Virus record (IMG/VR): IMGVR_UViG_3300025137_000054
Span: 1-53,701 of that record
Strand: one strand, 5' to 3'
DNA: 53,701 bases
DNA from: a virus
The notes under the pieces were generated by a model that made no database searches, was not told the origin of the DNA, and worked only from the letters and a program-made list of their open reading frames with translations. Both the position numbers and the translations under genes were made by a program. Below are positions 16,486 to 38,583 of the stretch, in pieces (within the stretch, counting starts at the first letter, position 1; each line of letters begins with the position of its first letter).

Positions 16486-17160
16486 TTAATTCACTCTCCT
16501 TGCGAGGTTGTGTATGTCTCCCCATGACATCTCAGCCATTGCTTCCGCAGTGGTTGGGAATCCGTCAGGAAGTGACATTGCAACTTCCTGTGCTTTCATT
16601 ATCTCAGTGTCTTTCTCTGATAGAGATTTGCGTAGTGATGCAAATTCTTCTTTAAGAGCAACAACTTCTGCATGAGCATCGTATTCTGCTCTTTCAGCCG
16701 CCGCTTTCTTAACGTCGAGTTCCGAAGCAAATCTGCTAGCAAATTGCTTAGATAAATTATCATAAGCAAGTTTCTCTAACTGCTCTGCTTTGAAAGCCTC
16801 GTAAGCCTTCTCTACGTTTTCTGCACTGAGGTCTAATGTGCTGAAATCAGCAGACTCTAAACCTTTGCTTACAGGGCCAAGTTCTTTTGGTGCGGCAGTA
16901 GGTCTTCCATTAACCACCACTTCTGTTCCGGCCTCGTAGTCTCTAGTAGAGTCTTCGTCAAGAGCCTTGTCCATATCGTCCATGCTCTCCACTTCTTCTT
17001 CCATCATTTCGACTTCTTCTTCTTTCATCGTTTCTTCTTCTTTCATTTCCATTGTCTCCAATTCTTCGTTTTCTTTTGTTATTGAGTCACCAGTAACTTC
17101 TCTAACTTGTGTTAACAAGCCATTGAGTTCTGCCAGTGCTTTCTCCAATTTTTCCGTCAT
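16486..17160 (-). CDS. Nested scaffold protein from internal start
   Basis: Inside the protease frame an ATG at 17160 (MTEKLEKALAELNGLLTQVR) is preceded six bases upstream by a near-perfect ribosome site, AAAGGAGGT. This would give a separate 224-residue scaffold made of coiled coil and ending in the tag MSWGDIHNLARRVN. The arrangement is that of lambda C/Nu3 and similar in-frame nested scaffolds. A strong ribosome site in the middle of a coding frame is hard to explain otherwise. Free scaffold would be needed in much larger amounts than protease. Confidence 0.8.
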   Translation of the reverse strand: MTEKLEKALAELNGLLTQVREVTGDSITKENEELETMEMKEEETMKEEEVEMMEEEVESMDDMDKALDEDSTRDYEAGTEVVVNGRPTAAPKELGPVSKGLESADFSTLDLSAENVEKAYEAFKAEQLEKLAYDNLSKQFASRFASELDVKKAAAERAEYDAHAEVVALKEEFASLRKSLSEKDTEIMKAQEVAMSLPDGFPTTAEAMAEMSWGDIHNLARRVN

Positions 17161-17700
17161 ATTTCTACCTCCTTTCTCATGTTTTAGTATGTCGAATTTT
17201 GCTTCGGGGTTAATTCCTTTTTCACAGATAGTAACTTCATGTAACTCTAAGTTATCAATCTCGTTGTATTCTCCGAATTCCTCTGATTTTCTTTCTTTTT
17301 TAGAAATGGCTTGTCCACCTATACTGAATGAACGTAGTGTTCCTTTTCTAATTCCTCTTGCTATTTCTTTTGCTTTCTCTATATCATCTCTAACTTTAAT
17401 GACAACATAAAATCCAACTCCGTCAACACCAGTCTTGTGTAGTACTCCGTTAGTATCTCGATATTGTTCAATGACTTCTCCTACTTGAACATTCGAATGA
17501 TTAGACATAACATTCCTGTAAGATTTTTCAGTCATAAAATCTTTAACAGCCTTTTCTAATGCTTCTAATGTAATTAAATCATTTTGTTTATCTACTATTT
17601 CTATTGATGCGTAGCCACCAATTACTAGATTTTCAGACTTAAGTATTTGGAAATTAGCAGTACTATCCTGCCTAACTAATACTTCTTGCTGTGCAAACAC
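16486..17700 (-). CDS. Prohead protease with fused C-terminal scaffold
   Basis: 404 residues, GTG start after AAGGTG. Residues 20-175 match HK97-type prohead serine proteases: GGYASIEIVDKQND, a histidine in VMSNHSNVQVGEV (His68), and the serine in GTLRSFSIGGQ (about 124-126). Residues 180-404 form an acidic coiled-coil scaffold rich in Glu and Met. The last 14 residues are MSWGDIHNLARRVN, a C-terminal copy of the tag seen at the ends of many other late proteins. In lambda and relatives the protease and scaffold are also one frame, with a nested scaffold. The protease should cleave scaffold and the capsid delta region during maturation. Confidence 0.88.
   Translation of the reverse strand: MFAQQEVLVRQDSTANFQILKSENLVIGGYASIEIVDKQNDLITLEALEKAVKDFMTEKSYRNVMSNHSNVQVGEVIEQYRDTNGVLHKTGVDGVGFYVVIKVRDDIEKAKEIARGIRKGTLRSFSIGGQAISKKERKSEEFGEYNEIDNLELHEVTICEKGINPEAKFDILKHEKGGRNMTEKLEKALAELNGLLTQVREVTGDSITKENEELETMEMKEEETMKEEEVEMMEEEVESMDDMDKALDEDSTRDYEAGTEVVVNGRPTAAPKELGPVSKGLESADFSTLDLSAENVEKAYEAFKAEQLEKLAYDNLSKQFASRFASELDVKKAAAERAEYDAHAEVVALKEEFASLRKSLSEKDTEIMKAQEVAMSLPDGFPTTAEAMAEMSWGDIHNLARRVN
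17167..17175 (-). promoter_or_regulatory. Internal Shine-Dalgarno site for nested scaffold
   Basis: AAAGGAGGT on the minus strand, located inside the protease coding frame and six bases before an in-frame ATG. It is among the strongest ribosome sites in the window. Confidence 0.8.
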
Positions 17701-17722
17701 AACACAACACCTTATACTCTTA

Positions 17723-17735
17723 CTATATTAAGTAG
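17723..17735 (-). promoter_or_regulatory. Possible TATA box before protease/capsid genes
   Basis: CTTAATATAG on the minus strand lies in the only gap (39 bases) between ligase and protease, about 25-30 bases before the GTG start. That spacing would give a very short or absent leader. It could supply extra transcription of the protease-capsid genes independent of the upstream operon. Weak evidence: AT-rich words like this are frequent here. Confidence 0.3.
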
Positions 17736-17739
17736 GCGT

Positions 17740-20793: not shown

Positions 20794-20955
20794 TCACGTC
20801 TCCAAATCTTTAATTACATTTCTTAATGCTTCTACTATTTCAGTTTCTAAAAATAAACCTAAGTTTTCATTCTGAGTTGTTTTAATTAACCCTTCAATAA
20901 ATTTTATTCCTTCGTTTAATTCGTCTACGTTTTTTACTATATCTTTCCAACTCAT
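20794..20955 (-). CDS. Small tagged late protein (MSWKDIVKN)
   Basis: 53 residues: the N-terminal tag MSWKDIVKNV, then two helices (ELNEGIKFIEGLIKTTQNEN and LFLETEIVEALRNVIKDLET). It fills an otherwise empty gap between neighbours with no spare space and has the same start, ATGAGTTGG, as other tagged genes. The body after the tag is unrelated to theirs. Probably a procapsid-internal protein if the tag is a targeting signal. Confidence 0.75.
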   Translation of the reverse strand: MSWKDIVKNVDELNEGIKFIEGLIKTTQNENLGLFLETEIVEALRNVIKDLET

Positions 20956-20960
20956 CTTAA

Positions 20961-21197
20961 TCACCCTGCATTCTCCACCATTTTGTGAATATCATCCCAC
21001 GACATTTTTCCAATGGTATCTCCTGTCGGAGCAACATTACTGTGGTTCATCGACGGAGTTGGAGTATTACGAACAACTAATCCTGCTTTCATTAGTATGT
21101 TGTCTTTATTGTATACTTGTTGTTCTAGAGATTTAACTCTATCAACTAGTTCTTTCATTAGTAGTAACATTTCATTATTTTCTTTTTGTTCTGTCAT
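20961..21197 (-). CDS. Small coiled-coil protein with C-terminal tag
   Basis: 78 residues from the ATG at 21197 (MTEQKENNEMLLLMKELVDR), which follows the previous stop after one base. A coiled coil at residues 8-35 is followed by a linker and the C-terminal tag MSWDDIHKMVENAG. The scaffold ends with the closely similar MSWGDIHNLARRVN, so this looks like a small scaffold paralogue or core protein. Having the tag at the C-terminus shows that it is a protein signal rather than a translation-start signal. Confidence 0.75.
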   Translation of the reverse strand: MTEQKENNEMLLLMKELVDRVKSLEQQVYNKDNILMKAGLVVRNTPTPSMNHSNVAPTGDTIGKMSWDDIHKMVENAG

Positions 21198-21198
21198 T

Positions 21199-21366
21199 TT
21201 AATTACCTCTTGCTTTGGCATTTCTAGCCCTTATTTGTGCTAGTAATTCCGGTTCTTCTTCTTCGGTTCTTTTAGCGGCTTCTTCATCTTGGCCTGTGGA
21301 GTTGGTAGTCGCTAGATGTTTTGCTCCTATTGGTATTCGGTTTTTTAATATATCTTGCCAACTCAT
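21199..21366 (-). CDS. Small tagged late protein (MSWQDILKN)
   Basis: 55 residues: tag MSWQDILKNR, a short linker (IPIGAKHLATTNSTGQ), and a charged helix (DEEAAKRTEEEEPELLAQIR then ARNAKARGN). It starts 13 bases after the next tagged gene ends, and its stop is one base from the start of the C-terminally tagged protein. Nothing beyond the tag is recognisable. Confidence 0.75.
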   Translation of the reverse strand: MSWQDILKNRIPIGAKHLATTNSTGQDEEAAKRTEEEEPELLAQIRARNAKARGN

Positions 21367-21379: not shown

Positions 21380-21577
21380 TTAATTGTAATGTTTTTCTAT
21401 AATCGTATGTTCAGAATTGGGGTAGAGATTATCCTGTTCTCTAACATATTCTTCGGCTTCATTTCTATTATCAAAGATAACCCCTGCCACTCTTTTTTTA
21501 CCTAAACCACTACCTTTTAATGCCCTGTATATCCAATACTTTGTCGTTCCTTCTTTCAATATATCTTCCCAACTCAT
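21380..21577 (-). CDS. Small tagged late protein (MSWEDILKE)
   Basis: 65 residues. After the tag MSWEDILKEG comes a small alpha/beta region (TTKYWIYRALKGSGLGKKRV, AGVIFDNRNEAEEYVREQDN). The ribosome site GGAGGAGAAATTACA precedes the ATG. The body is basic at its start and may bind DNA. No family recognised. Confidence 0.78.
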   Translation of the reverse strand: MSWEDILKEGTTKYWIYRALKGSGLGKKRVAGVIFDNRNEAEEYVREQDNLYPNSEHTIIEKHYN

Positions 21578-21594: not shown

Positions 21595-22050
21595 TTATTT
21601 TGACGCTTCATAAGTTATTGCTAATTGTTCAAGGGTAAGTTTGTCATTCTCGTATTTCATCATCAAATCGCCTCCTTTGAGGTCTACTTCTAAAACTAAT
21701 TGGGATTTTTGATTCAAATTAACAACATACTCAACATCAAACTCACTATTGGATGCCTCAAACTCAAAAACCTTTTTTGTAATAAAATCCTTATCTTCAT
21801 AGTCTTCATCATTGGGAGGAATCCTAGAATAGAAACTGACTTCACCCTCTACTCTATCTATTTGTTCTACATATACTCCACTTTGATTTTCTGTTGTAGT
21901 ATAAATCTTAAAAGAATAACTTTCCACTTCTAATCGTTTTTTATTAGAATCTAATATTTCTACTGAAAAGTTTCTATCCCTGTGGGTTATATTTTGCCAC
22001 ACTTCCATTTCTTGCTTCTTAATGTCTTTTAGTATATTTTCCCAACTCAT
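21595..22050 (-). CDS. Tagged beta-rich late protein (MSWENILKD)
   Basis: 151 residues. The tag helix (MSWENILKDIKKQEMEVWQN) is followed by a beta-sandwich-like body with alternating strands (FSVEILDSNKKRLEVESYSF, VEGEVSFYSRI, QLVLEVDLKGGDLMMKY). Its size and pattern resemble the tagged 146-residue protein at 35392-35832, so the two may be distant paralogues. Its start overlaps a possible 25-residue frame upstream. Function unknown. Confidence 0.78.
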   Translation of the reverse strand: MSWENILKDIKKQEMEVWQNITHRDRNFSVEILDSNKKRLEVESYSFKIYTTTENQSGVYVEQIDRVEGEVSFYSRIPPNDEDYEDKDFITKKVFEFEASNSEFDVEYVVNLNQKSQLVLEVDLKGGDLMMKYENDKLTLEQLAITYEASK

Positions 22051-22124: not shown

Positions 22125-22440
22125 CCTTACCCCCCTTTGGGTATACTACTCCTTTAATTTGACTGTAAAGAGTTTCATAATCTTTACGAAGTTCTGCGGC
22201 ACTAGCAAGTATGTCAAGATTCTGTTCTGAAAAGGTTTTCATTTTTTTAGTTAGAGATTTATCTGATTTAACTAAATCTAAATCTGACAGTTCTTTAATG
22301 ACTTCTTCTAGTTTAGTCATCTCTTGTCCCATATACTCTGTCGGTTGTGTAGACTGTAATAGTTTCTTAAGTTTCTTCTTTTCTTTAGGCTCTAGTTTTT
22401 CAAGAAAATCTGATGCTTTCAAAACCTCCTGCCACGACAT
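22114..22440 (-). CDS. Tagged helical late protein (MSWQEVLKA)
   Basis: 108 residues: tag MSWQEVLKAS followed by an all-helical, lysine-rich body (FLEKLEPKEKKKLKKLLQST, then EVIKELSDLDLVKSDKSLTK). No cysteines. Probably a structural or core protein. No known family recognised. Confidence 0.75.
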   Translation of the reverse strand: MSWQEVLKASDFLEKLEPKEKKKLKKLLQSTQPTEYMGQEMTKLEEVIKELSDLDLVKSDKSLTKKMKTFSEQNLDILASAAELRKDYETLYSQIKGVVYPKGGKDET

Positions 22441-22461: not shown

Positions 22462-23649
22462 CTAGTTAATCTGTATTTGCCTCTTTCTGTCTTTACCGAC
22501 AGTAAATTCGTAATCTTTTACTGTAACATTAATTAGTTTTTCCATTGTTTTTAATGCTTTAAGATGTCTAGAATTCTCAGGCACAAGACTCGACATTTCT
22601 TTTATTGTAGAATAAATCTCTTCTATTTTATCAATTATAGTATCAACATCTGCAAAAACAGTTGTTGTACCAAAAACCCCTTCATCGTATATACTTGCAG
22701 TACCTTTACTATCCGACAAAGTATCTGTCACTTTATCATAAACCATATCTGTTGGTGATTGCCAATTCCTATCTTCTTCGTTTATAGTACCTTTACCTTG
22801 TTCAGTTACCTTTAGGTCTTTTAATCGTTCACGTAACGCATCAAGAATTTCCTTACTTTCAGATTCATCTTCTTTACTAAGTGACCTTTCTTCTTCAAGT
22901 TTGATTTTTTCTAGTGTTATTAGTAGTTCTCTAAATGTACTTTCTAGTCTCTCAATATTATTGCCTAAACTATCAATATCTACTTCTGATTTATTACCGA
23001 GTAGAGTTTCCAACTTATCTAATTTTTTTCTAGTCATACCTTTCCCTCTCAATACTGTCTTATTGATATCTGCAATTTGCTCTAAGAACTCTCTCAATAT
23101 TTCTAGTGACTCTTGTCCATTATATTCCTTTTCTTCTAAGGTATCTAAATCAATTAAGTCTGCTCCTTGTATTGGAGCAACTGTATAACTTTGAGATTCA
23201 TAAAATAAATCTAATAACTTAGGGTCAGCAATTGGTTTTTCTCCCGTCTGCTTAGGTACAAGAGAATAATAAAAATTCATTACTCTATCCTTACTTCCAC
23301 TTTTTGGAACTAGATATGACCTAGCAAATTCCTTTACTAAGTCTCGCATCTCATCGGCATTTATGTCATTAGTCTGACTATATTTATCCAATACATTTTC
23401 CCAAAGTTTAATGTTTTTTGCAGAAGCAACTAGACTATCTTTTTTCCTTTTTACTCTAGCAGTTTCTTTATCACTACTTTCATTACCACTATATTCTGCT
23501 TCTTCTAACTCTCGCTTTTCTCTTGCGGCTAATTGTTTAGGAGTTAACTGAGTTATTCCTTCATCAGTATCTGCTTCCGTTTCAGCAAGAAAATCAGAAA
23601 TATCAGGGTCTTTCTTCTTACGCAAGATATCCATAAAATTCTGCGCCAT
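22462..23649 (-). CDS. Large helical late protein with degenerate tag
   Basis: 395 residues from the ATG at 23649, preceded by AAGGTG at six bases; an earlier in-frame GTG is less likely. The N-terminus MAQNFMDILRKKKDPDISDF keeps the D-I-L-[RK]-K part of the tag but has Phe instead of Trp. The remainder is helical and charged, with long coiled-coil stretches around residues 150-290 (IADINKTVLRGKGMTRKKLD, NNIERLESTFRELLITLEKI). It could be a core or internal-scaffold protein. No family recognised. Confidence 0.72.
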   Translation of the reverse strand: MAQNFMDILRKKKDPDISDFLAETEADTDEGITQLTPKQLAAREKRELEEAEYSGNESSDKETARVKRKKDSLVASAKNIKLWENVLDKYSQTNDINADEMRDLVKEFARSYLVPKSGSKDRVMNFYYSLVPKQTGEKPIADPKLLDLFYESQSYTVAPIQGADLIDLDTLEEKEYNGQESLEILREFLEQIADINKTVLRGKGMTRKKLDKLETLLGNKSEVDIDSLGNNIERLESTFRELLITLEKIKLEEERSLSKEDESESKEILDALRERLKDLKVTEQGKGTINEEDRNWQSPTDMVYDKVTDTLSDSKGTASIYDEGVFGTTTVFADVDTIIDKIEEIYSTIKEMSSLVPENSRHLKALKTMEKLINVTVKDYEFTVGKDRKRQIQIN

Positions 23650-23659
23650 TTTGTTCACC

Positions 23660-23892: not shown

Positions 23893-24078
23893 TCACTCTA
23901 CCCATTCAATTATTTTTTCAAGATTTTGTTCTTCTGCTACTGCGGGGTCTACTGGATGTGCTCTTGCTTCTTCTATTGTTTCAGCAGGTTTAATTTCTCC
24001 CTCTCCACCCATTGAAGTTTCTCCACCCATTGCATCTGTTTGTCCGGCAACCTTTAGTATATTCCACCACTTCATCAT
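23893..24078 (-). CDS. Small late protein with variant tag (MMKWWNILKVAG)
   Basis: 61 residues. It begins MMKWWNILKVAGQTDAMGGE, a variant of the tag that keeps W-x-[ND]-I-L-K, and ends with an acidic helix (AVAEEQNLEKIIEWVE). The start overlaps the stop of the portal gene (ATGATGA). The body is Gly/Glu/Ala rich. Likely an internal head protein expressed with portal. Confidence 0.68.
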   Translation of the reverse strand: MMKWWNILKVAGQTDAMGGETSMGGEGEIKPAETIEEARAHPVDPAVAEEQNLEKIIEWVE

Positions 24079-25706
24079 CCTACTCGCCTCTCTGTTCGGG
24101 AATCAACGTTTTGATTACCTGCTTCTTGCGGTAATCCTGTAAACCTTTTATCAGGACCAGTTTCCATAGACGGTTTATTTCTAGTTTCTCCACCACCTTG
24201 ATTTCCCATCAATTGTTGTTCTTGTAATTGTCCTAGTTGACTAGGGTCAATATCTGTTCCCGCATACGGGTCAGTTTCTACTTCTCCCTCACCCCCTTCC
24301 GGTGGAGGAGCCTCAGGTTGAGGTTCAGGTTTCTTAAATGTGAATCTGCCTTCATCATCCATATCAACTTCAAACCCTAAATTCTTAATAGAAGCGGCTA
24401 CATTTACTTCAATCTCTCTCTTTCGTAGTTTAGCAATTTCATCTTCTTCTTCTGATGGTGGAAGTTTAAGTTCCCAATCAGTTATACCAAACTCCTTAGT
24501 CATAAATGGGAACACATAGTTATTCCAAATTGTTTGTGCCATCTCAACTGCTCGATTAGTAACAAGTATCTGCATACCCTCATTATTTAGTCCACCACTG
24601 GCAGAACTATCTGCCATGAATATTTTACTTACACCATAAAAAGCAGATATTCTATCTCTCAAATCTTCTTTGACTTGTATGTAGTCCATCTCCTTTAGAC
24701 TGTCCATGAACTTAATCCATTCAACGCCACCCTTTCCTCCGTCGGATTCAATTCCCATTACAGGAATAAAGTGTGGGTCTTGTTCCATCTTTTCTTTGAC
24801 CCCCCGCCAAAATGATTTCATAGATTCCATATTACGTGTCTGAACTGCTAACAAGCCTCTAGGCATTCTTGCCTTTGTATAAGAAGAATTAACATAATTT
24901 TCCATTGCTAGTAAAGTAGTAATGTGATTCCACATAGTCATAATAGGAGACTGTCCATATAATCTAGAAGGAGCATACTTACTAAAATGAAGTACTTCTC
25001 CTTCTATGAAATATTGTTCAGTACCATTTACTCTGTTAACATAATGAACAGGATGTAGTTCTGACCCACATATATCACAACTATCACTAATCGAAGTACT
25101 GATGTAATCTCTATGATTTAAACAAGTAAATCCTTCATGACCTCTCTCTCCATTTTCATCAGCATAAATATGCATAGATACAGGGTCTCCACGAAATACT
25201 TCTTTAATTCGATGCATACGAATGTCACCATTACCGTCAACGAAATATTCCTTAACCATAATCATATATGCATCGTCCATAATATTCAAATCGTCTTCTA
25301 ATTCTTTTAGTACATCAATAAATAATTGTTCCGCCTTATTTACATGTCCATCTAATAACTTATGAATATATTTTAATTGGTCTCTATTTGGTTTAATTAA
25401 ATTCAAACTACTACAATCAACGCATTCTTTTACGGGTTGTTTATGTTCTCTACCACAATCACCACAACGGCTAGTAAATTTTTCTTCCCATGTATACCCT
25501 CTTCGGAATATTTCATTTTTTAATTGAGTTATACATGTTCTAAGTATCACTGACTGGAATGCTACATGATAAATAATTGGAGCAGTAATCAGATAAGAAG
25601 TATCCTTCTCTTGAATACCCGGATTATATATCGTTCTATCTTGTGGCTTCGGTGTCGTCCTACGAGTTAATCGTTGAAACAACGTGGGTTTATTTTCTTC
25701 TACCAT
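24075..25706 (-). CDS. Portal protein with two inserted zinc clusters
   Basis: 543 residues from the ATG at 25706, preceded by GAGGGGG. The body has the portal pattern, including the stem/wing region (LHFSKYAPSRLYGQSPIMTM) and the helix and clip region (EDLRDRISAFYGVSKIFMAD), followed by a Pro/Gly-rich tail. Two zinc clusters interrupt the N-terminal half: C81-x2-C84...C95-x2-C98 (RCGDCGREHKQPVKECVDC) and C195-x2-H198...C210-x2-C213. Zinc clusters are not usual in bacteriophage portals. It lies downstream of terminase, separated from it by the LAGLIDADG gene. It forms the dodecameric DNA channel at one capsid vertex. Confidence 0.88.
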   Translation of the reverse strand: MVEENKPTLFQRLTRRTTPKPQDRTIYNPGIQEKDTSYLITAPIIYHVAFQSVILRTCITQLKNEIFRRGYTWEEKFTSRCGDCGREHKQPVKECVDCSSLNLIKPNRDQLKYIHKLLDGHVNKAEQLFIDVLKELEDDLNIMDDAYMIMVKEYFVDGNGDIRMHRIKEVFRGDPVSMHIYADENGERGHEGFTCLNHRDYISTSISDSCDICGSELHPVHYVNRVNGTEQYFIEGEVLHFSKYAPSRLYGQSPIMTMWNHITTLLAMENYVNSSYTKARMPRGLLAVQTRNMESMKSFWRGVKEKMEQDPHFIPVMGIESDGGKGGVEWIKFMDSLKEMDYIQVKEDLRDRISAFYGVSKIFMADSSASGGLNNEGMQILVTNRAVEMAQTIWNNYVFPFMTKEFGITDWELKLPPSEEEDEIAKLRKREIEVNVAASIKNLGFEVDMDDEGRFTFKKPEPQPEAPPPEGGEGEVETDPYAGTDIDPSQLGQLQEQQLMGNQGGGETRNKPSMETGPDKRFTGLPQEAGNQNVDSRTERRVG

Positions 25707-25707
25707 T

Positions 25708-27045
25708 TTATTCCCCCTCATTCTTTGCAATTGATTCTAGTTTATCCATTTCGGACATTTTATCGTTGCCGTAATATTTTACAACACTATCTATGTCAAT
25801 CTCATACTTTGCGAAATCATAGTTCTTATCATCCTTGTGATTCTCATATTTCATCAATTTAAAGAGTTCTACCTTTCTAGCCTTATACCATCCGGCTTTT
25901 TTGTGACTCTTTTTCATTCGTAATAACTCGACTAATATTTCTGCATTTTTTTGTTTCAATTTAAAGTATGGCATACACTTACTAAGTATCTCAGTGACAT
26001 CTGCTCTAGAATAAAAATTTAATCGATTAATTGGTTTAGTATCTTGTGGAGATTTTTGGTCTAGATGAAGTCTACCACATCCTAGAGACTTGTGCATTTC
26101 TAACATGAATGCTTTTCCTCGGTCTCCGGTTGCGACTAATCCAACTCTAGGGTTGTGATTTTTGTCCATTGTAATATATCCATCTGAATCTATAAATGCC
26201 GCAGTATATGCGTAGATATCTTTTTTAATTTCATCATTCATCTTATACAAAGCACCGTCTACAATAGTTATATTCGCAGACTTAGCAATTTTAGAAATGA
26301 TAGCAGGTGAAGATTTTCTAAAAAGATTCTTGGGTAGTCTCTCATGTACTTGTCTTGCAGAAATACCCTGCTCCTCACTAACTAATCTAACAACATGCCT
26401 TTTAATTAATTCCTTTGGCCCAATATTAACAACATATTTTTTTATTGTTTTCTTAACATCTTTTTTAGTAGAACTCATTTCTTTACTAAGTTGAGCGTAT
26501 TCTACATTAAATGGTAATCCTTCTCTTTCTATTCTTGCTTCCCAATACTTACACAATCCATCAATAACATCCCTTCTAGTAGATTCATCATGTATCAATG
26601 AAAGTTTAATTATATTTTCTTCTGATAATGTCATATCTTTCAATGCAGATTTATATTTTTTTACCCAATATATTTTATTTATACTACTATCTAGATGTGA
26701 AGAATATGCATCTATTAAATTATCAATAGATTTTGTTACTGCAATTTTTGATTCGCCCTTTAGAGTTCTTCGGTGTACTCTAAGTTCTTTAATCATCATA
26801 GGAATATCATTTCCTTCTATTTCATATTTCTTTAAATTAAAATGTATTGCTTTTCTAGCGTCTGATAAACCTACGTTATGTTCTTCGGCAAATCTTTTTT
26901 CAATCTCAAAGTGACTAGTAATTGGTTGAGTAGAAAGCCAATCACTTTTCATTTCTTCAGTAAGTACTTTTTGTTGTTCCCGAAGAGTTTCTTCTTGGTC
27001 AGCAAGTTCAGCCGCCTCCCTCAATTTGTCTCCTTTCTCTCCCAT
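25708..27045 (-). CDS. LAGLIDADG homing endonuclease-like protein between terminase and portal
   Basis: 445 residues, ribosome site AGGTGATACT before ATG. A single LAGLIDADG-type motif is clear at residues 280-292 (YTAAFIDSDGYIT), followed by the expected strands (NPRVGLVATGDRGKAFMLEM) and a C-terminal helix-rich part (LKQKNAEILVELLRMKKSH). One motif implies it would work as a homodimer. The first 270 residues are helical and contain DNA-binding-like segments, with no splice motifs, so this is a free-standing gene and not an intein. Its insertion between the two packaging genes is typical for homing endonucleases. A domesticated role in packaging is an alternative. Confidence 0.78.
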   Translation of the reverse strand: MGEKGDKLREAAELADQEETLREQQKVLTEEMKSDWLSTQPITSHFEIEKRFAEEHNVGLSDARKAIHFNLKKYEIEGNDIPMMIKELRVHRRTLKGESKIAVTKSIDNLIDAYSSHLDSSINKIYWVKKYKSALKDMTLSEENIIKLSLIHDESTRRDVIDGLCKYWEARIEREGLPFNVEYAQLSKEMSSTKKDVKKTIKKYVVNIGPKELIKRHVVRLVSEEQGISARQVHERLPKNLFRKSSPAIISKIAKSANITIVDGALYKMNDEIKKDIYAYTAAFIDSDGYITMDKNHNPRVGLVATGDRGKAFMLEMHKSLGCGRLHLDQKSPQDTKPINRLNFYSRADVTEILSKCMPYFKLKQKNAEILVELLRMKKSHKKAGWYKARKVELFKLMKYENHKDDKNYDFAKYEIDIDSVVKYYGNDKMSEMDKLESIAKNEGE

Positions 27046-27053: not shown

Positions 27054-28487
27054 CTAGAAATTCATGCCCATGACACCGGACATACTGCTCCGAGTGCGAA
27101 CAGGTGTATCAAAGATGTCCAAGTCATCTAGTAAAATGTACTGTTCTCCTGTACCTTGAGATGCGGCATTGGCTAATGCTAAACTCATTACCAAATCGTC
27201 ATGTGCTCCTACTCCCTCAAACTTACCTGCGGCAGTAATAGAAAACATAGAAAGTTCTTCTATTAACAAATTGGTTACTCTTCGACTAGAATTATCTCCA
27301 TAAGGAAATATCATTTTTTTATTCTCAATATTCATTTGTAGATTTAAAATTATTTCTTGTTTCTTTCTTCTAGTAGTATTAAAATCTCTAACATTCAAAT
27401 CTGTCATATTCTTTAATTCTTGAGTAAATGCTTTGGCAAAAGTATTTGTCTCAAAAAGAATTTCTTCCGGTTCAAACACTTTCCCTATTAAGCGAATCTT
27501 ATCTATATTTTCTCTGAACTCTATGTTCTTTGCCCTATCAACATGAACCACTGCTTTATTCTGTTCTTTGTCTACTTCTAAAACTGTAATTACATTGTAG
27601 TCTCCATCAGTAGAAATTGCAGGGTCAACTCCCACATAATATCTATATCCTTTTTCCTTTCTGTTACCTAGTTTTAAAATGTAATCTTTATTTTTACAAT
27701 TAGTAACTAACTCAGGATTGAATAGTGCAGTTCCAGTAGAGATAGGAACGCAAAGATATTCTCTTGTAAATTTCAAAGAACCTATTTCCGCCTTTCGTTG
27801 CATGAGTGCATCAAAGTCCCAACGCTCAGGCCAAAGAGGTTCGTTAAGTGGATTCAAGCAAGGATATTTAGTTACAGTATATGCTTCATTTTCCTCTAAC
27901 TGTGCAAAAATATCAGTATAGGTAAACGGTGTACCAATCATTCTCAACTTAGATGTGTGGTGAAGTGTTGGTATCATATCCCCAAAGAACCAATCAGTAA
28001 CTCTTTGAATACCTGCTAGACTAAATTCTTTCAAAGGGTCGTCAATGATAATTTCTTGAGGGTGAAGTCCTCTAATTTGAGAACCAACGGAACGCTCTAA
28101 AATCGCATTGCCATTGGTTAACTGAATATTACCAATAGCCCAACCCCTACTAGGTTTGTATTGTTTTAATGCAGGGTGATTAAAATATCTATCAATTTCT
28201 CTCATGTGAACTAGAGTCTGCTTTTGGTTAGAAGATATGTATAACATTTGAAACGGTGGTTCTTGAAACACTAAATTCCAAACTACCCAACTGTGCATAA
28301 ATACAGATTTTCCATGGTCTCTTGAACAAATGATAACTGTTCGATTAGTATTTTCCATTGACTCTAACCATTCTTGCATATACTCAGGAAACATTAATCC
28401 TAATACATTTTGAAAAAAATATGGGAAAGAAGTTTTAGATATCTCCATATCCATTTGAGAAACAAAATCTATATTTTCTATTTCCAT
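27054..28487 (-). CDS. Terminase large subunit
   Basis: 477 residues. ATPase: Walker A SRDHGKS (55-61), Walker B EIIIDD (145-150), and the coupling motif around GTPFTY (185-190). Nuclease (RNase-H fold): GVDPAIS (Asp288), ILFETNTFA, and GAHDDLVMSLALA near residue 435 with the final acidic residues. This is the motor that pumps and cuts the genome. Upstream lie tagged small genes and further upstream the small-terminase candidate. No insertion or damage seen. Confidence 0.95.
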   Translation of the reverse strand: MEIENIDFVSQMDMEISKTSFPYFFQNVLGLMFPEYMQEWLESMENTNRTVIICSRDHGKSVFMHSWVVWNLVFQEPPFQMLYISSNQKQTLVHMREIDRYFNHPALKQYKPSRGWAIGNIQLTNGNAILERSVGSQIRGLHPQEIIIDDPLKEFSLAGIQRVTDWFFGDMIPTLHHTSKLRMIGTPFTYTDIFAQLEENEAYTVTKYPCLNPLNEPLWPERWDFDALMQRKAEIGSLKFTREYLCVPISTGTALFNPELVTNCKNKDYILKLGNRKEKGYRYYVGVDPAISTDGDYNVITVLEVDKEQNKAVVHVDRAKNIEFRENIDKIRLIGKVFEPEEILFETNTFAKAFTQELKNMTDLNVRDFNTTRRKKQEIILNLQMNIENKKMIFPYGDNSSRRVTNLLIEELSMFSITAAGKFEGVGAHDDLVMSLALANAASQGTGEQYILLDDLDIFDTPVRTRSSMSGVMGMNF

Positions 28488-28488: not shown

Positions 28489-28791
28489 TTACCACTTTAC
28501 TTTATTCGCCCAATATGCCGCAGAAGTTTTTCCACGTTTGATATTCTTAGCATGACGAGCCTTAAACGAATCTTGTTTCTTTTTGCGTTTACCTTTAGGG
28601 TCGCTTTCGGTAACAGTTTTTGCACCTTGTTCACCGAATCTAATTGTTTTAACTTTCTTTCCGTCCTTAACAACTACAACGTGTGATTTGGTTTTATGTT
28701 TAGGAGTTCTCTTTGGTTTACTAAAGCCACTAACACCTGCTCTTTTTAGTGCAGGGTGTTTTTTTCTTTTTACAATATCAAACCAAGTCAT
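28489..28791 (-). CDS. Tagged basic protein of the RFG-Q / FKARH family
   Basis: 100 residues. The tag MTWFDIVKRK is followed by a very basic linker and a C-terminal domain with KTIRFGEQGAKTV, RKKKQDSFKARHAKNI and SAAYWANKVKW. From memory, small proteins with this succession (VRFGDQ ... SFRARH ... YWSCK-W) are widespread in tailed marine phages, often as virion-associated proteins of unknown function. A basic DNA-contacting protein inside the head would fit. Its end overlaps the start of the terminase region by design, with one base between. Confidence 0.75.
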   Translation of the reverse strand: MTWFDIVKRKKHPALKRAGVSGFSKPKRTPKHKTKSHVVVVKDGKKVKTIRFGEQGAKTVTESDPKGKRKKKQDSFKARHAKNIKRGKTSAAYWANKVKW

Positions 28792-29528
28792 TGTTCTGCC
28801 TCCTTTTCTGCTTCGGGTGTAGGATATGTAGGAAATCCCCTTTTACCCGTTAGTCTACCCCTCATTTTCGCATGAAACTTAGAAGCATCAGAATCTCCTT
28901 CTACTCTCTTCCTAGACATCATTCTAGCATGATACTTTCGTTTTTCTTCATCTGTGAAATTATCATATTCACTAATATCTCTATGTTGTAAATCTTTATA
29001 CTCATTTCCTGTTGTTTCCTCCCCTTCAAATGGTGGAGTATAGTTTGGATTATTCTTCATTCTATTATACATTCTAAAAGCCATGTTACTCTTAGAAGAC
29101 CTTCCGTGTTCTGTAATAACTTTATGAAACAATCTAGACCAATATTTGTGTTTCTCATCTCTTGAATAATTATCATACATTTCTTTAGTAGTAGTAGGCA
29201 TTCTCTCAATTGCATCATATTGTGGTTGAATCGTATATCTATTCTGTTCGTCTTTTAAAGAATAATAGATTTCTTTAGTTGTTTTACGTTCCAATCTTAA
29301 AAATTGTCTCATATGAAATCTTTCTAATTCTCTACGCCTTCTAATTTCGTCGTCCGGTAAAGGTGGGGCTTCAACTGCTCTTTTAACTTCTCTTTTATAA
29401 TGAGAACGCATAGAATTATGATAATCCTGTTTATTTTTATTATCCATTCTATAATATCTATCTCTTGTTAAAGTACGCCATACGCCGCCATAAGGATTAG
29501 GCATTTTTAGAATACTAAACCAACTCAT
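28788..29528 (-). CDS. Tagged repeat protein (MSWFSILKM)
   Basis: 246 residues, tag MSWFSILKMPNPYGG. The rest contains several copies of a charged aromatic repeat of about 20 residues: YRMDNKNKQDYHNSMRSHYK, EMYDNYSRDEKHKYWSRLFH and EYDNFTDEEKRKYHARMMSR share Y-x-N/M-x4-[EK]-x-[KQ]-x-Y-[HW]. The protein is rich in Arg, Tyr and Met and very basic, suggesting interaction with packaged DNA. No family recognised. Its start abuts the stop of the PAP2 gene, and its end overlaps the next gene (ATGA). Confidence 0.78.
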   Translation of the reverse strand: MSWFSILKMPNPYGGVWRTLTRDRYYRMDNKNKQDYHNSMRSHYKREVKRAVEAPPLPDDEIRRRRELERFHMRQFLRLERKTTKEIYYSLKDEQNRYTIQPQYDAIERMPTTTKEMYDNYSRDEKHKYWSRLFHKVITEHGRSSKSNMAFRMYNRMKNNPNYTPPFEGEETTGNEYKDLQHRDISEYDNFTDEEKRKYHARMMSRKRVEGDSDASKFHAKMRGRLTGKRGFPTYPTPEAEKEAEQ

Positions 29529-30491
29529 CTAACCCCTCCTCTTGAACCAACCATGAAGACCCTCATTTTCTTCTCTTCTGAATGTACCTGTCTTCCTTCT
29601 CTTTGGCTTTCCGCCTCTTCTCTTATAATCTTCACAAGCAGAACATGTAGGGCGGCATCTTCTTTTAGTTCCCTTCGAAGCATCTTTTCTACCACAAGGT
29701 TCTGTACCTTCTTTATCATCTTTACAAGATGCACAACTTACCCAATCTTTAACCAAGGTATCTTGCCAAGATTTTTTAACATCTTTTGTTAGATAAGTTT
29801 CTGCAATTAAATACCCTACTTTTTTACCTACTTCTATGTCACTAGGATAGTGGCTACCTAATTGTAATCTAGACATAGATATCTTATCAGCCAATTTATT
29901 AAGTTCTTCTGTTTTATCAGGATATTTATCTGAAAATATTTTTGCAAGAGCATGTGCTTCTACTGCATGTCCACTAGGAAAAGCCGGACTATCATCAGTA
30001 TCTGTCGTAGACTCTATCTTATCAGAAACTTCGTAAGGTCGTGGCCTAGCATATTTTACTTTGAGTTTGATTGTGAAAATATCTATATCTCTAATTAATT
30101 CATTCCAATCCTTTCTATCTTCCCCTACAACATCTAACATTAATTTGTTATTGTTTTGGTCTAAGTCTTCCATGCTATCTTCATCAAATTTATTACCTTC
30201 CATCACGGCAATAACTTGAAGTATTTCATCTTCGTTTTTTGGATATTTATATTCAGGAAAATCAACCTTAAATGATGGTTCTGATTCTAATAATTCTCTT
30301 TTTTTATCGGATAGATTTTTTGGGCCATATTTAGATTCTGCTTTCTTTACAGAGTTACCCCAATTTTTTGCACCTACTTTTCTGCATTGTACTAATGCTC
30401 CTGAAGCATAAGCAGAAGGCCACTTCTTGTATCTGCTTCTGACCTTATGGTAGCAAGCATCTTTTTCTTTTTTAAGTTCTTCAAACCACAT
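29529..30491 (-). CDS. PAP2-type phosphatase fused to two phage-type basic domains
   Basis: 320 residues from the ATG at 30491, which overlaps the previous stop (ATGA). Three parts are visible. Residues 1-45 have a reduced tag (MWFEELKK) and the segment YKKWPSAYASGALVQCRKVG, seen in many marine phage proteins. Residues 90-235 form a PAP2/vanadium-haloperoxidase-type phosphatase with all three motifs: KVKYARPRP (144-152), PSGH (172-175) and SRLQLGSHYPSD (207-218). Residues 241-320 begin with a second tag-like sequence (SWQDTLVKDW) and continue as a basic Cys-rich domain (CASC, CGRKD, CRPTCSAC). It therefore looks like a fusion of two tagged proteins. PAP2 enzymes dephosphorylate lipid or polyprenyl phosphates. 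A virion-carried enzyme acting on host membrane or surface precursors is possible. Confidence 0.83.
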   Translation of the reverse strand: MWFEELKKEKDACYHKVRSRYKKWPSAYASGALVQCRKVGAKNWGNSVKKAESKYGPKNLSDKKRELLESEPSFKVDFPEYKYPKNEDEILQVIAVMEGNKFDEDSMEDLDQNNNKLMLDVVGEDRKDWNELIRDIDIFTIKLKVKYARPRPYEVSDKIESTTDTDDSPAFPSGHAVEAHALAKIFSDKYPDKTEELNKLADKISMSRLQLGSHYPSDIEVGKKVGYLIAETYLTKDVKKSWQDTLVKDWVSCASCKDDKEGTEPCGRKDASKGTKRRCRPTCSACEDYKRRGGKPKRRKTGTFRREENEGLHGWFKRRG

Positions 30492-33558: not shown

Positions 33559-35378
33559 GCCACCCCTATTTCCTTCTGAATCCATTGAACAGGTTCTAGA
33601 TTGTCTATTTTCTTACCCATAGATATACCCATTCTACTCAGTTCTTTCATATTGTTACCTACGCCGTCTAAAAACAGTTCTCGAATTTTAGGATATTCTT
33701 GCAATATAAGGTCTTTGAATTCCTCTGCACTAATATTTCCCTCTTCCAAATCTACTTCGTCAATTTCTTCGCCGTCATATAACTCACTTAGTCTTTTCAA
33801 TACAATAATAATATTTCCAAGAGTTCCACCTTTGTTCTGTGGTGAATCAAATGTTCTAACATTATCATCCATTACGTCATCTAGAACTGACCAAGCATTT
33901 ATTTTTTCTTGAGTAAAGAATTTTAACTTATCTATATCTGCGGCAGTTGGCCTATATTTTTTACTAGTAGGCATTAATTTCATACCTTCTAATGCTTCTA
34001 TTACTAAGTCAATATCTCCTATCTCATCTTCAACATCTGAAAAAGTATCAAACGTTTTAGTAATACCCAATGCTTTTATTGCTTCACTGAAATCTTCTTC
34101 ATCATCTGACTTAAGTGCTTCAATAATATCTTCACGGACTTCCGCAGACATACCACTTGATTGAGTAACCTCAGACATTACTTCTTGAAACTCTTCATTT
34201 GCTTTTTCTCTTACTTCATTAAAAAATTGTTTTCTAGCCTTACCTGCTTTTCTAGCCGCATTATCCCATCCTGAACTACTGTCTCTAGATTGTTGCCTTA
34301 GTTCAACTCTTCTTGCAGTTTCTTCTTCGGTCTCATCATTACGACCATAATATGCTTCAATTGATTCTCTATACTTATCATAGATAGTTCGAATTTTTTC
34401 ATTATCTAAAGTTCCTTCTATTAGTTTTTTCAACGCTGAAATTTCTTCTATATTTCTAGGAGTATAAGCGGTAGGAATGTTCGAAGAATCTAATGCTTCA
34501 TACTCTAAAATAAATTCTAATGAAGGTAATATTCTTGAACGACCAAATAGTTGTTTAGCATCCTCACTATTTCTTTCTTCGAAATTGATAAATTGAACTT
34601 TCTTTGCTTCCGATACTCCTCCTAAAATTAATATCTTTTTGATATAGCGAATAACTACATCAGGTGGAATAGTTTGATTAATTTCTATCTTAGGTACTCC
34701 ACCGATTTTTAGTATCTTTTTTATTTCTACAAGTTGAGGGTATTGAGTTTCTGAATCATTTAGAATTTTTGTGTTTAATTCTTTACGACTAACAATGTAT
34801 TTTCTAATTCTGACAACGTATGATTCCTCTTGTTGTAGCATTGCTAGTAAATCAGCGTAATTTGAATCTTCAATTAATTTAGGTATTTTATCAAGTAATC
34901 CTTGTCTAGTATTACCTTGACTTGTTTTTCTAGGCTGAGGAGTGTTCAATCGTTCTAACATTTCATCTTTCTTATCTGCAAACAAATTTTTCATAGTATA
35001 GACAGTCTTACCTAATCTAGTAGGTTTACCTGATAGTAAATTTCTTGCGGCAATCACAGACTGTAATGTTCTTGAATCTAATCCACCTTCTACATATTCA
35101 TTCCAAGTTTCCTCAGTGCTAGCGGCTTGAAATATTTTGAACATTGTACTACTACCAAAGTTGGCCGATTCAGAATAATCAGGATATTCTTTAGTCTCTC
35201 CTTCCTTGCCAAAATCACCCAATCCCATTTGAGTAGACTTACCTGCTTCTTTTGCTCGACGATTCTTTTCTTCTCTTCTGCGATGGAATTTTTTTCTGTC
35301 TTCATTATATCCCATTACCTGAGGTTTAGTTTCCTTAGGAGTAAGTTTTTCATTTTTAAGAATAGACTCCCAACTCAT
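33555..35378 (-). CDS. Large tagged helical protein (MSWESILKN)
   Basis: 607 residues from the ATG at 35378, with AGGTGG seven bases upstream; the ORF could extend four codons but without a better site. Tag MSWESILKNE, then a very basic region (RKKFHRRREEKNRRAKEAGK) and a long helical, acidic body with coiled-coil stretches. No catalytic motif was found. Size and composition fit an internal head or core protein ejected with DNA. It overlaps the start of the 858-residue gene by four bases. Confidence 0.78.
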   Translation of the reverse strand: MSWESILKNEKLTPKETKPQVMGYNEDRKKFHRRREEKNRRAKEAGKSTQMGLGDFGKEGETKEYPDYSESANFGSSTMFKIFQAASTEETWNEYVEGGLDSRTLQSVIAARNLLSGKPTRLGKTVYTMKNLFADKKDEMLERLNTPQPRKTSQGNTRQGLLDKIPKLIEDSNYADLLAMLQQEESYVVRIRKYIVSRKELNTKILNDSETQYPQLVEIKKILKIGGVPKIEINQTIPPDVVIRYIKKILILGGVSEAKKVQFINFEERNSEDAKQLFGRSRILPSLEFILEYEALDSSNIPTAYTPRNIEEISALKKLIEGTLDNEKIRTIYDKYRESIEAYYGRNDETEEETARRVELRQQSRDSSSGWDNAARKAGKARKQFFNEVREKANEEFQEVMSEVTQSSGMSAEVREDIIEALKSDDEEDFSEAIKALGITKTFDTFSDVEDEIGDIDLVIEALEGMKLMPTSKKYRPTAADIDKLKFFTQEKINAWSVLDDVMDDNVRTFDSPQNKGGTLGNIIIVLKRLSELYDGEEIDEVDLEEGNISAEEFKDLILQEYPKIRELFLDGVGNNMKELSRMGISMGKKIDNLEPVQWIQKEIGVA

Positions 35379-35391
35379 AATAACCACCTAA

Positions 35392-35832
35392 TTAATATGA
35401 ACCTTGCCATTCAAAATTTCCACTAATCTCAAACCTATCAGAATCTGTTTGATTTTTCATGTCTATAAGAATATAAACTTCACTAGGATTAAACGCATCT
35501 ACTCCCGAAGGCATATCATCTTCTAATTTGTTAGCATCAAATTTAAGTTTATAGTTTGTTCTTTTGTCATCAAGTGCGGCATCTCCATCTTTGAATGTTA
35601 CATAATCAAAATCTAATTCCACTGATATAGCATAAGAACCAATTGACTTGACTCCCCAATCCCTAACGTCAGCAGAAAAACTACCCTTTACATTACAACT
35701 AATTACTTCTTCTTCTGTATATTCTACATTATTTGGTTTATTAGAAACCTGTATGGAAGGCTCAATCTTCCATGTAATGTCGTACTCTGACTTCCTTAAT
35801 TCTAACTTTCTTAAATTATTTTTCCAACTCAT
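35392..35832 (-). CDS. Tagged beta-rich late protein (MSWKNNLRK)
   Basis: 146 residues. Variant tag MSWKNNLRKLELRKSEYDIT, then a beta-sandwich-type body (VISCNVKGSFSADVRDWGVK, YAISVELDFDYVTF, SEVYILIDMKNQTDSDRFEI). Similar in size and strand rhythm to the tagged protein at 21595-22050. Start overlaps the stop of the next upstream small gene. Function unknown. Confidence 0.75.
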   Translation of the reverse strand: MSWKNNLRKLELRKSEYDITWKIEPSIQVSNKPNNVEYTEEEVISCNVKGSFSADVRDWGVKSIGSYAISVELDFDYVTFKDGDAALDDKRTNYKLKFDANKLEDDMPSGVDAFNPSEVYILIDMKNQTDSDRFEISGNFEWQGSY

Positions 35833-35978
35833 TGTAACTCCTCCAACTCAGGTTCTAAAATCTCCTTCTTATCTTCCTTCCTTCTTGAAGTTGAATCTTT
35901 AGGAGACTTATATCCTCTACCTCGTAAACCAGTTCCTTTTGATTTACCAGTTCTCTTAACGATATCAAACCAACTCAT
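35829..35978 (-). CDS. Small tagged basic protein (MSWFDIVKR)
   Basis: 49 residues from the ATG at 35978, preceded by GGAGGAG; an upstream in-frame extension would lie inside the neighbouring gene. Tag MSWFDIVKRTGKSKGTGLRG, then a basic Ser/Lys segment and an acidic tail (EDKKEILEPELEELQ). Its start overlaps the stop of the zinc-finger small-terminase candidate (ATGA). The body is too short for a fold of its own, so it may be a minimal internal peptide. Confidence 0.75.
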   Translation of the reverse strand: MSWFDIVKRTGKSKGTGLRGRGYKSPKDSTSRRKEDKKEILEPELEELQ

Positions 35979-36634: not shown

Positions 36635-36715
36635 TTAATATGCCCCACAATAAGGACACATTGTCATAGACCAATTTTCTTGTTTAATCGTGCGTATTCT
36701 TTTACAACATTTCAT
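36635..36715 (-). CDS. 26-residue zinc-ribbon peptide
   Basis: MKCCKRIRTIKQENWSMTMC plus PYCGAY. Its ATG overlaps the stop of the upstream gene (ATGA) and its TAA abuts the next ATG, so it fills the gap exactly. CC near the N-terminus and C-x2-C at the C-terminus could hold one zinc. Very small, but the coupling and cysteine pattern support it. Confidence 0.6.
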   Translation of the reverse strand: MKCCKRIRTIKQENWSMTMCPYCGAY

Positions 36716-37785
36716 GCCATCACCTTTACTATTTCTTTCCAATCAGAAGAATCCTGCTTTTCTAACTTCTCTTCCGGTTTTTTATTCTTAAAACCAGCGA
36801 TTTCTGCCATGTTAGCAATTTGCCTTCTTGAGATTCTTAAAAATACATTTTCTAAATCTAATTTAACTTCTGCACCCAACCACTCTAACAACTTAGTTGA
36901 CTCTGCATCACTCAGTTTGAAAGAAATCTTAGCCCTTCTAGAATTTTCATCCACTAATTCACGGTAAACTTTACGAGATGCGAAGTTACCACTCGTTTTT
37001 ACCACATATGCAGGACTATTTACTCGTTGGTCAAACCACCCTTTGAATCCACTCAAGTTTTCATACACCCATCTTGCAACCTGTCCTTTTGATTGCTTAC
37101 CTTTCAATGCAATATTGAGAGGTTTGTCTGAACGGTTAATTGCCTTGGCTCTTGGAATTGCTTCGATAACCATATTACACATCATCAACAAACTTGGGTG
37201 TTTGAATTCTAATTTACCATCACCAAACAATGCTTGCCAAACAGGGGGTTTTGCTTTCCCTGCATTTTTATTGTAGAAGTGTGTAGGTACAACATCCACA
37301 GTTTCATTCTTATGTCTTCCTCGATATTTCACATACTTAGGAGTTCTGAAATCTCCAAATATTTTACTCTTACCAGTTATTTTACCATCCTTAGAATAAC
37401 TCCTAATGCTAGTGAACATAATATTAGCCGGATTTACTTTAGAAGTCCCATTGTTATTTTCATCTAAATATGTTTTCAGAGCAGTAATTGCTACAACTTG
37501 CTCATTAGAATAAAAATTCTTTTTTCCGGCATCTTTTGCTTTGCTAACATACTCTTGTATTGGGGCTTCGGGACTGCTTTGACTACCATCAGATTTTGCT
37601 CTACCCTTTACTCCCATATTTGAAATAAATTCTAGAATATCTGTTGAAGTTCTACCTGTGTTTAACTTGTAACTAGAAGCAGTTGATGCCCAAGTTTGAT
37701 ACAGTTCTGAAAAGTTAGGAATCTCAGTCTCTAATTCTACGACCAATTCCTCGGAAACCTGAATCTCCTGAGTTTTCTTCTTCAT
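36712..37785 (-). CDS. Late protein with C-terminal tag, unknown
   Basis: 357 residues using the ATG at 37785; a GTG seven codons earlier is possible. The body is mixed alpha/beta and basic (YRGRHKNETVDVVPTHFYNK, LNIALKGKQSKGQVARWVYE). After a Lys/Glu linker it ends SSDWKEIVKVMA, a C-terminal version of the tag. Its beginning overlaps the end of the upstream 64-residue tagged gene by about 60 bases. The family is not recognised; the basic surface suggests nucleic-acid contact. Confidence 0.72.
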   Translation of the reverse strand: MKKKTQEIQVSEELVVELETEIPNFSELYQTWASTASSYKLNTGRTSTDILEFISNMGVKGRAKSDGSQSSPEAPIQEYVSKAKDAGKKNFYSNEQVVAITALKTYLDENNNGTSKVNPANIMFTSIRSYSKDGKITGKSKIFGDFRTPKYVKYRGRHKNETVDVVPTHFYNKNAGKAKPPVWQALFGDGKLEFKHPSLLMMCNMVIEAIPRAKAINRSDKPLNIALKGKQSKGQVARWVYENLSGFKGWFDQRVNSPAYVVKTSGNFASRKVYRELVDENSRRAKISFKLSDAESTKLLEWLGAEVKLDLENVFLRISRRQIANMAEIAGFKNKKPEEKLEKQDSSDWKEIVKVMA

Positions 37786-37918
37786 CGGAGTCTTTCTTTT
37801 TACCACGTTTTTTCTTCCCCCCGTACTTTACATTGAACATCGCAGGACTGGAAGTTGTGGTAACTGCGCCAGCCATTCGCAGTAAATTAAACCATGAAGA
37901 ATCTGATACCGATGACAC
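37724..37918 (-). CDS. Small late protein with variant tag (SSWFNLLRMAG)
   Basis: 64 residues from a GTG at 37918 that has AGGTGG eight bases upstream; another GTG lies four codons earlier. The N-terminus reads SSVSDSSWFNLLRMAGAVTT, a tag variant, followed by a Lys/Gly-rich stretch and an acidic and Arg-rich tail (GFRGIGRRIRD). Start codon assignment is uncertain. Confidence 0.6.
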   Translation of the reverse strand: MSSVSDSSWFNLLRMAGAVTTTSSPAMFNVKYGGKKKRGKKKDSDEEENSGDSGFRGIGRRIRD

Positions 37919-37984
37919 AACCTGTTCCACCTGAATATGCTGAGGACAATAAACGTTGTTCTAAAAACATTTTCTTTTACACGA

Positions 37985-38029
37985 TAAAAACGATTTTTAA
38001 ATATCCTAACTGTTCACGGAACATTAGGA
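37985..38029 (-). terminator. Hairpin and T-runs after the 189-residue tagged gene
   Basis: Minus-strand TCCTAATGTTC (38029-38019) pairs with GAACAGTTAGGA (38015-38004) through a 3-base loop with one bulge, spanning the stop codon. T-rich sequence follows (two runs of T in ATATTTAAAAATCGTTTTTATC). The same AT-rich stretch (TATTTAAAAA) could also be the TATA box for the next gene, at 37918. Good terminator candidate. Confidence 0.55.
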
Positions 38030-38583
38030 TTTAAAGCCGTTCTAGTTGTATTGTCTTGTCTCCTAGTAATCGGATTTAGTTTTCTTCCGGTTCTTCTTAA
38101 CTTACCTCTCCAACTTTTATCGTCTTGCATTGCTTGATATCTTCTTGGGTCGGTGAATTTTGTGTTTGGCGACATGCTAGTTGTGGTTGCACCATATTGA
38201 CTAGTACCGGAACCATCGGCGGATAGTGTCTTAGGAATACTAATTTTTAGTTTCCCGCCAAACATTCCAGTTGATACTTTGTAACCTGCTTTTTGATACA
38301 ACTCTTTTAATTTGTTTTTTACCATATCGGCATTATTCCCTAAGGCTTTGAGGTCAGTAGAACCAATAGTGTATGTGTCTCCTGCCATTCCTGACACATA
38401 TGTTTTTGGAGATACTGCAATATTAAACTCAGGAAGTTTAGTTTGGTCTAGTGTTTTAAGATAGTCTTCGATTGCAGGAGTCATAGTCTTTTTTTCATAG
38501 GCTTCTACATCGGCTTGTATTTGAGTAATATTAGCACTACGGTCAAATGGTTGAACTTTCAATATACTCTCCCAATCAGCCAT
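38014..38583 (-). CDS. Tagged late protein (MADWESILK)
   Basis: 189 residues, variant tag MADWESILKVQPFDRSANIT. The middle is alpha/beta (FNIAVSPKTYVSGMAGDTYT, VKNKLKELYQKAGYKVSTGM) and the C-terminus is a basic tail (SWRGKLRRTGRKLNPITRRQ). It is the first tagged gene of the late operon in transcription order and is followed by a hairpin. No family recognised. Confidence 0.75.
   Translation of the reverse strand: MADWESILKVQPFDRSANITQIQADVEAYEKKTMTPAIEDYLKTLDQTKLPEFNIAVSPKTYVSGMAGDTYTIGSTDLKALGNNADMVKNKLKELYQKAGYKVSTGMFGGKLKISIPKTLSADGSGTSQYGATTTSMSPNTKFTDPRRYQAMQDDKSWRGKLRRTGRKLNPITRRQDNTTRTALNPNVP

Follow-up and report, generated by a model that had tools for sequence, protein, structure and literature searches.

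A short terminal peptide shared by unrelated late proteins of a magrovirus is a probable capsid-targeting signal

Results

The locus and its tagged proteins

The 53,701-nucleotide viral sequence IMGVR_UViG_3300025137_000054 from IMG/VR, analysed over its whole length and called the window below, encodes an S78 prohead protease fused to a helical scaffold, an SU10-type capsid protein, a portal, a terminase, an ATP-dependent DNA ligase and a TFIIB-like factor (TFB). The minus strand carries the late genes and the plus strand the early genes, so that the morphogenesis and replication modules are opposed. The subject of this analysis is an eight-residue peptide tag found at the ends of many late proteins of the window. 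Its consensus is M[STND]W..[IV][LIV]K, or in a fuller form M-[STND]-W-x-[DENS]-[IV]-[LIV]-K. The initial annotation had listed 18 copies, and all of them are present on the minus strand: 11 good N-terminal copies, four weaker ones and three at C-termini (Table 1). In some open reading frames (ORFs) the start codon lies a few codons upstream of the tag: ORF 20794-20964 begins MIKMSWKDIVK, the MSW of ORF 35829-36017 stands at 35978, downstream of the start codon, and SSWFNLLR occupies residues 11-18 of ORF 37724-37930. Two of the weaker copies can be compared with their relatives. The body cluster of the PAP2-family protein includes proteins with MSWFNILK, MNWFNVLK and MSWFDAIK, and relatives of ORF 22462-23658 retain QDFMDILRKK.

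Magroviruses are very common ocean viruses of archaea. By gene content the window is a magrovirus, a tailed virus of Poseidoniales (marine archaea), because its genes match the features of Magrovirales. These features are genomes of 90-110 kb, a family B polymerase, an ATP-dependent ligase and opposed replication and morphogenesis modules (PMC12999244, PMC10768690), and all of them were found: the IMG/VR relatives reach 92-103 kb, and all 12 examined encode a family B polymerase. A distant link to Druskaviridae is also expected of Magrovirales, and the closest named relatives of the capsid protein belong to the Haloarcula viruses HCTV-1, HVTV-1 and HCTV-5 of that family. In nearly all of the 12 relatives the polymerase is split into two separate pieces. 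This fits the PolB-NTD/CTD annotation of Aoguangviridae, PolB being annotated as N- and C-terminal domains in these viruses (PMC12999244, PMC10768690).

Table 1. Selected genes and tag copies in the window
Feature	Position	Strand	Remark
Major capsid protein, SU10_MCP	15126..16484	-	closest named relatives Druskaviridae; untagged; candidate receptor
Prohead protease (Peptidase_S78) fused to helical scaffold	16486..17700	-	
C-terminal scaffold-type tag MSWGDIHN	16507..16530	-	S78 protease-scaffold 16486-17700
N-terminal tag MSWKDIVK	20932..20955	-	ORF 20794-20964
C-terminal scaffold-type tag MSWDDIHK	20982..21005	-	small coiled-coil protein 20961-21221
N-terminal tag MSWQDILK	21343..21366	-	ORF 21199-21366
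N-terminal tag MSWEDILK	21554..21577	-	ORF 21380-21577
N-terminal tag MSWENILK	22027..22050	-	ORF 21595-22050
N-terminal tag MSWQEVLK	22417..22440	-	ORF 22114-22440
Tag variant NFMDILRK	23617..23640	-	ORF 22462-23658; Phe for Trp
N-terminal tag variant MMKWWNILK	24052..24078	-	ORF 23893-24078
Portal protein	24075..25730	-	untagged
Terminase large subunit	27054..28487	-	untagged
N-terminal tag MTWFDIVK	28768..28791	-	ORF 28489-28791; bacteriophage homologues of body untagged
N-terminal tag MSWFSILK	29505..29528	-	ORF 28788-29528
Tag variant MWFEELKK	30468..30491	-	PAP2-family protein 29529-30548
N-terminal tag MSWESILK	35355..35378	-	ORF 33555-35387
Degenerate N-terminal tag MSWKNNLR	35809..35832	-	ORF 35392-35832
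N-terminal tag MSWFDIVK	35955..35978	-	ORF 35829-36017; in L032 fused, tag inside, to another tagged protein
C-terminal cargo-type tag SDWKEIVK	36724..36747	-	ORF 36712-37806
Near-N-terminal tag variant SSWFNLLR	37877..37900	-	ORF 37724-37930
N-terminal tag MADWESILK	38557..38583	-	ORF 38014-38583

The tag is far more frequent than chance allows

We collected related loci as relatives of the terminase, the capsid protein and a small coiled-coil protein, and called ORFs in 215 marine viral sequences; an alignment search with the terminase (TerL) gave an identical set of best 80 loci. In 80 of the related loci the coding strand carries 428 copies of the motif that begin with Met, and the opposite strand carries none. 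Across all 215 loci, 487 different proteins have the tag at their N-terminus when the plus (coding) strand is read, against 0 for the minus strand. Of 3,121 N-termini, 387 match the strict motif; of 22,059 internal methionines, 2 do, both of them at fusion junctions. The procedure for picking starts prefers a tag Met in the first 60 residues, a bias that is bounded, since internal matches are so few. Counted per residue, the core motif is ∼134 times commoner at the N-terminus and ∼18 times commoner at the C-terminus than in protein interiors. At the DNA level, a pattern encoding M-x-W-x-x-[IV]-x-K has 107 matches in 12 relatives (1.16 Mb), nearly all of them on a single strand and concentrated around the head genes. 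The reversed pattern has none in the same sequences, and the tag pattern has none in six other tailed-virus genomes (five T4-like cyanophages and HCTV-1).

The bodies behind the tag were clustered after removal of the first and last 14 residues. Tagged members are held by ∼221 clusters, 123 of which are singletons. Conservation of the tagged proteins, measured relative to their bodies, covers residues 2-8; the information falls sharply at residue 9 and reaches background soon after. When 148 cluster representatives are aligned, the consensus is limited to MSWxxILK, which bears out the earlier view that the bodies are unrelated. They match few and differing Pfam families, and searches of NCBIfam and PADLOC gave no useful functions for the cargo proteins. 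Some body clusters do include paralogues, which speaks for shared ancestry of tagged proteins. Against an origin by chance or common descent, however, stand the unrelated bodies and the empty reversed and outgroup controls, and its probability is negligible; the counts, with their strand asymmetry and N-terminal excess, lead us to reject chance outright.

A scan of IMG/VR with a narrower tag pattern recovered at least 118 new loci, at least 105 of which encode relatives of the magrovirus proteins used here. Among the matches listed, most of the remaining 13 loci are tagged, often several times, and a few are chance matches in unrelated phages (L292, L346, L306). In cellular genomes the search gave a single match, a magrovirus-like contig (L349, NZMJ01000101.1) in a metagenome-assembled genome of the bacterium Maricaulis, which we take to be a binning error; a host call from this contig would mislead.

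The tag is conserved as a peptide

The tag Leu uses all six of its codons, and the Leu, Val and Lys codons vary broadly. Tags are also found at domain junctions. In several relatives the body of 28489-28791 takes the form of a PIRKVKGGYKWG domain, MDWFDTLK and a HPALKRAGVSGF domain, and in L032 the window protein 35829-36017 is the tail of another tagged protein, with its own tag internal. The N- and C-terminal copies have only the peptide in common. A translation-start signal is rejected on the C-terminal and junction copies, and the claim of a tag acting at the peptide level stands on these copies, on the other Ser codons used at the C-terminus and on the six Leu codons.

One could still suppose that the N-terminal copies are a single duplicated piece of DNA, a start codon with a translation enhancer, devoid of function in the protein. 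The strong preference for ATGAGTTGG agrees with this: Ser at position 2 is AGT in 257 of 268 tagged genes, compared with 220 of 414 untagged genes starting with MS. The codon variation at Leu, Val and Lys is too wide for such a copy, though, the C-terminal tags use TCT, TCA or TCG for Ser in 70 of 84 cases, and copies at C-termini and junctions are unable to start translation. The duplication is thus largely refuted and very improbable, although some N-terminal tags may have spread by copying. In late genes of all loci AGT is strongly favoured as the second codon of Met-Ser genes, with or without the tag, suggesting that these viruses have a preference at translation start.

The tag is an add-on

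Marine bacteriophages commonly encode the body of 28489-28791, which is related to DUF6321; their versions are untagged and start with MAKKDPRLERAGVSGFNKPK or similar. Because these homologues lack the tag, we regard it as an add-on. Two magrovirus modules that are separate tagged proteins (ASGALVxCRKVG and NPRIPRKxGQ..TIHGLGFKD) are joined in one large protein of a T4-like cyanophage, between gp16 and gp17. Its neighbours sometimes start MKSYNEFISES or MKSFQDFLQES, resembling the T4 targeting sequence; this parallel to magrovirus tagging is suggestive but weak, and the T4-type start pattern is sparse in the cyanophages (10 matches versus 2 in the control). More generally, small modules occur both in magroviruses, as separate tagged proteins, and in marine bacteriophages or T4-like cyanophages (window 29529-30548 and 28489-28791; L018:2464-2784).

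The tag is confined to the head module and shared with the scaffold

N-tagged ORFs account for 227 of the 998 ORFs upstream of the major capsid gene, but for 1 of 945 downstream, in the tail module, and 0 of 92 on the opposite strand. The tag is thus confined to the head module. Within the same operon the portal, terminase, capsid protein and ligase are untagged.

Two sub-types can be told apart, a split that the initial annotation had not seen: a scaffold-type W.DIH[NKST] on the scaffold and the small coiled-coil protein, and a cargo-type W..[IV][LIV]K. Every complete protease-scaffold has a tag-type ending (110/110), confirming the earlier statement that the scaffold C-terminus carries the tag. 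The scaffold-type W-x-[DE]-[IVL]-H ends 108 of these 110 distinct proteins, and the other two end in the close variant SWAEIN, with Asn for His. An alignment of 39 scaffolds shows a variable linker followed by the invariant residues W393 and H397. An AlphaFold model of the protease-scaffold, a poor one (mean predicted local distance difference test, pLDDT, 45) that we used for its C-terminal helix only, has a helix at 393-403 starting at the invariant Trp. The 110 sequences and this low-confidence model suggest a conserved helix at the extreme C-terminus of the scaffold, as a P22-like role would have it.

All 103 distinct small coiled-coil proteins end in W..[ILV]. Of the 146 loci whose upstream sequence is long enough, at least 134 encode the coiled-coil protein, which could serve as a second scaffold or as a cargo adaptor; with 16486-17700 and 20961-21221, the window has two distinct proteins with scaffold-type ends. 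In the family of 36712-37806, a cargo-type tag lies in the last dozen residues of 27 of 28 members, in very different linker contexts, and the model of the window protein (pLDDT 82) places a separate terminal helix at 356-363 behind a disordered linker. The fold of this protein, confidently predicted, matches only unnamed viral proteins and had no match in the PDB.

The restriction to one operon region would also agree with a tag that addresses a partner other than the capsid, such as a chaperonin, a replication or assembly factory or the portal, at which late head-module proteins fold or gather, packaging being incidental. Aoguangviridae encode a chaperonin (PMC10768690), and a passage of PMC10052503 cites the N-terminus of the T4 major head protein as directing proteins to GroEL. 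Abundant late proteins, namely the capsid protein, the portal and all tail proteins, nevertheless do without the tag, whereas it is always present at the C-terminus of the scaffold and of the coiled-coil protein. We consider such a partner unlikely.

Discussion

We propose that the eight-residue tag is probably a capsid-targeting peptide with the same docking site as the scaffold tail; the targeting and the receptor we infer. The tag would be a short linear motif that sends late magrovirus proteins inside the assembling procapsid. It may form an amphipathic helix turn with W3, I6 and L7 as its contact face and K8 as a fixed charge. Its sister form, W-x-D-I-H-[NK], ends the protease-scaffold and the small coiled-coil protein, and cargo tag and scaffold tail would take the same kind of site during procapsid formation. 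The simplest candidate for this site is the inner face of the major capsid protein, the alternative being the scaffold core; the capsid protein is the most economical receptor because the scaffold and the coiled-coil protein both carry the tag themselves. Covariation of scaffold and cargo tags across clades offered too few clade differences to name the receptor. With a shared docking site, the cargo would be enclosed together with the scaffold, and then probably delivered with the genome. The constant Leu-to-His difference may, speculatively, separate retained partners (cargo) from released ones (scaffold).

The initial annotation had proposed a binding signal for the procapsid interior. The restriction of the tag to the head module and its variant on the scaffold now support this reading, while presence in virions, sufficiency of the tag and the binding partner are putative. 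Several points weigh against capsid targeting. Neither a virion proteome nor a structure turned up for any magrovirus in our literature search. There is a consistent difference between the scaffold-type (IHN/IHK) and cargo-type (ILK) tags, and the two might bind different partners. Most cargo bodies are without known function, so that an internal role is not checkable by homology. Finally, 205 cluster representatives have no strongly conserved position at residues 9-30 after the tag, and hence no common protease site was seen, in a test that detects shared cleavage sites and that a non-conserved site would escape.

This last result also bears on the idea that the tag serves the S78 prohead protease, for substrate docking or as a pro-sequence, and is not a packaging address. 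The T4 targeting sequences are indeed cleaved as well (PMC9026906), and one C-terminal copy sits on the protease-scaffold itself. Yet the residues following the tag, up to 30, are not strongly conserved, and the far C-terminus of the separate coiled-coil protein is tagged too, which makes a protease element quite improbable. Taken as a whole, the capsid-targeting reading of the tag is well supported, though not proved.

Known systems offer several parallels. In T4 the first 10 residues of IPIII suffice for targeting, residues 4 and 7 mattering most (PMC9026906). Like the T4 sequence, the magrovirus tag is a stretch of about ten N-terminal residues or fewer common to otherwise unrelated late proteins, has key hydrophobic residues three apart (W3 and I6) and marks a fast-turnover cargo. 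It differs in its unrelated sequence, the magrovirus pattern being absent from the five T4-like cyanophages, in its occurrence at C-termini and domain junctions and on the scaffold tail, in the lack of a recognisable common cleavage site, and in its use by far more families (∼221 clusters), in archaeal viruses. The suggestion of an archaeal-virus counterpart of the T4 signal with a different sequence is upheld by the magrovirus gene content and the unrelated consensus.

In P22, C-terminal scaffold helices bind the coat, an ability that is lost when 11 residues are missing (PMC9965877); cargo attached to a truncated scaffold by fusion gets packaged (PMC9962691). A short C-terminal scaffold helix would thus act as a shell-docking element in both systems, and in P22 packages what is attached to it. 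The P22 use is engineered, however, whereas magroviruses tag many natural proteins, mostly at the N-terminus; the sequences are unrelated, and the magrovirus docking is putative. The N-terminus of P1 DarB likewise sends a reporter into the head of a tailed virus, but the P1 Dar proteins have no common N-terminal consensus (PMC9024508), while that of the magroviruses is sharp. Encapsulin cargo-loading peptides, too, are short terminal peptides on cargo of an HK97-fold shell. Unlike an encapsulin, the magrovirus shell is the capsid of a tailed virus, encoded together with a portal, a terminase and a tail, and we reject encapsulin membership: the shell gene is SU10_MCP, its best named relative is a Druskaviridae capsid protein, and it adjoins portal, terminase and protease. 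By analogy, the tag would work like a T4 capsid-targeting sequence or an encapsulin cargo peptide while related to neither. In HCTV-1 (L083, 4831-16949), proteins between portal and protease share another short module that recurs among them (VYIDNPSEAPDNV...GGTYYV; EWVSDPSDDAPNRWRNTETGEYRYQENKPGS), and Druskaviridae may thus have an analogous system.

Capsid-targeting peptides are already known from T4 and P1. What is new here is the unrelated sequence, its place at either end and at junctions, its sharing with the scaffold, the unusually many families and the archaeal viruses. Our literature search found no paper linking archaeal viruses with capsid targeting, and a magrovirus survey, searched for capsid-targeting terms, describes no motif. 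If the proposal is true, no capsid address signal would, to our knowledge, have been described before in an archaeal virus, nor one so widely used in any virus, and the tag would supply a ready-made peptide for loading archaeal-virus capsids.

More tentatively, with a probability that we place somewhat below even, the tag may represent a general delivery system, in which a scaffold-mimicking peptide, portable to either terminus or to a junction, fills the head of archaeal viruses with many unrelated proteins, a rapidly changing set, for delivery into Poseidoniales, the IHN/K and ILK sub-types separating transient from retained binding. If capsid targeting is true, several hundred orphan proteins would gain a testable role: a tag readable from sequence would sort hundreds of them into a class packaged in the head, the very set in which factors for early host takeover and counter-defence are expected.

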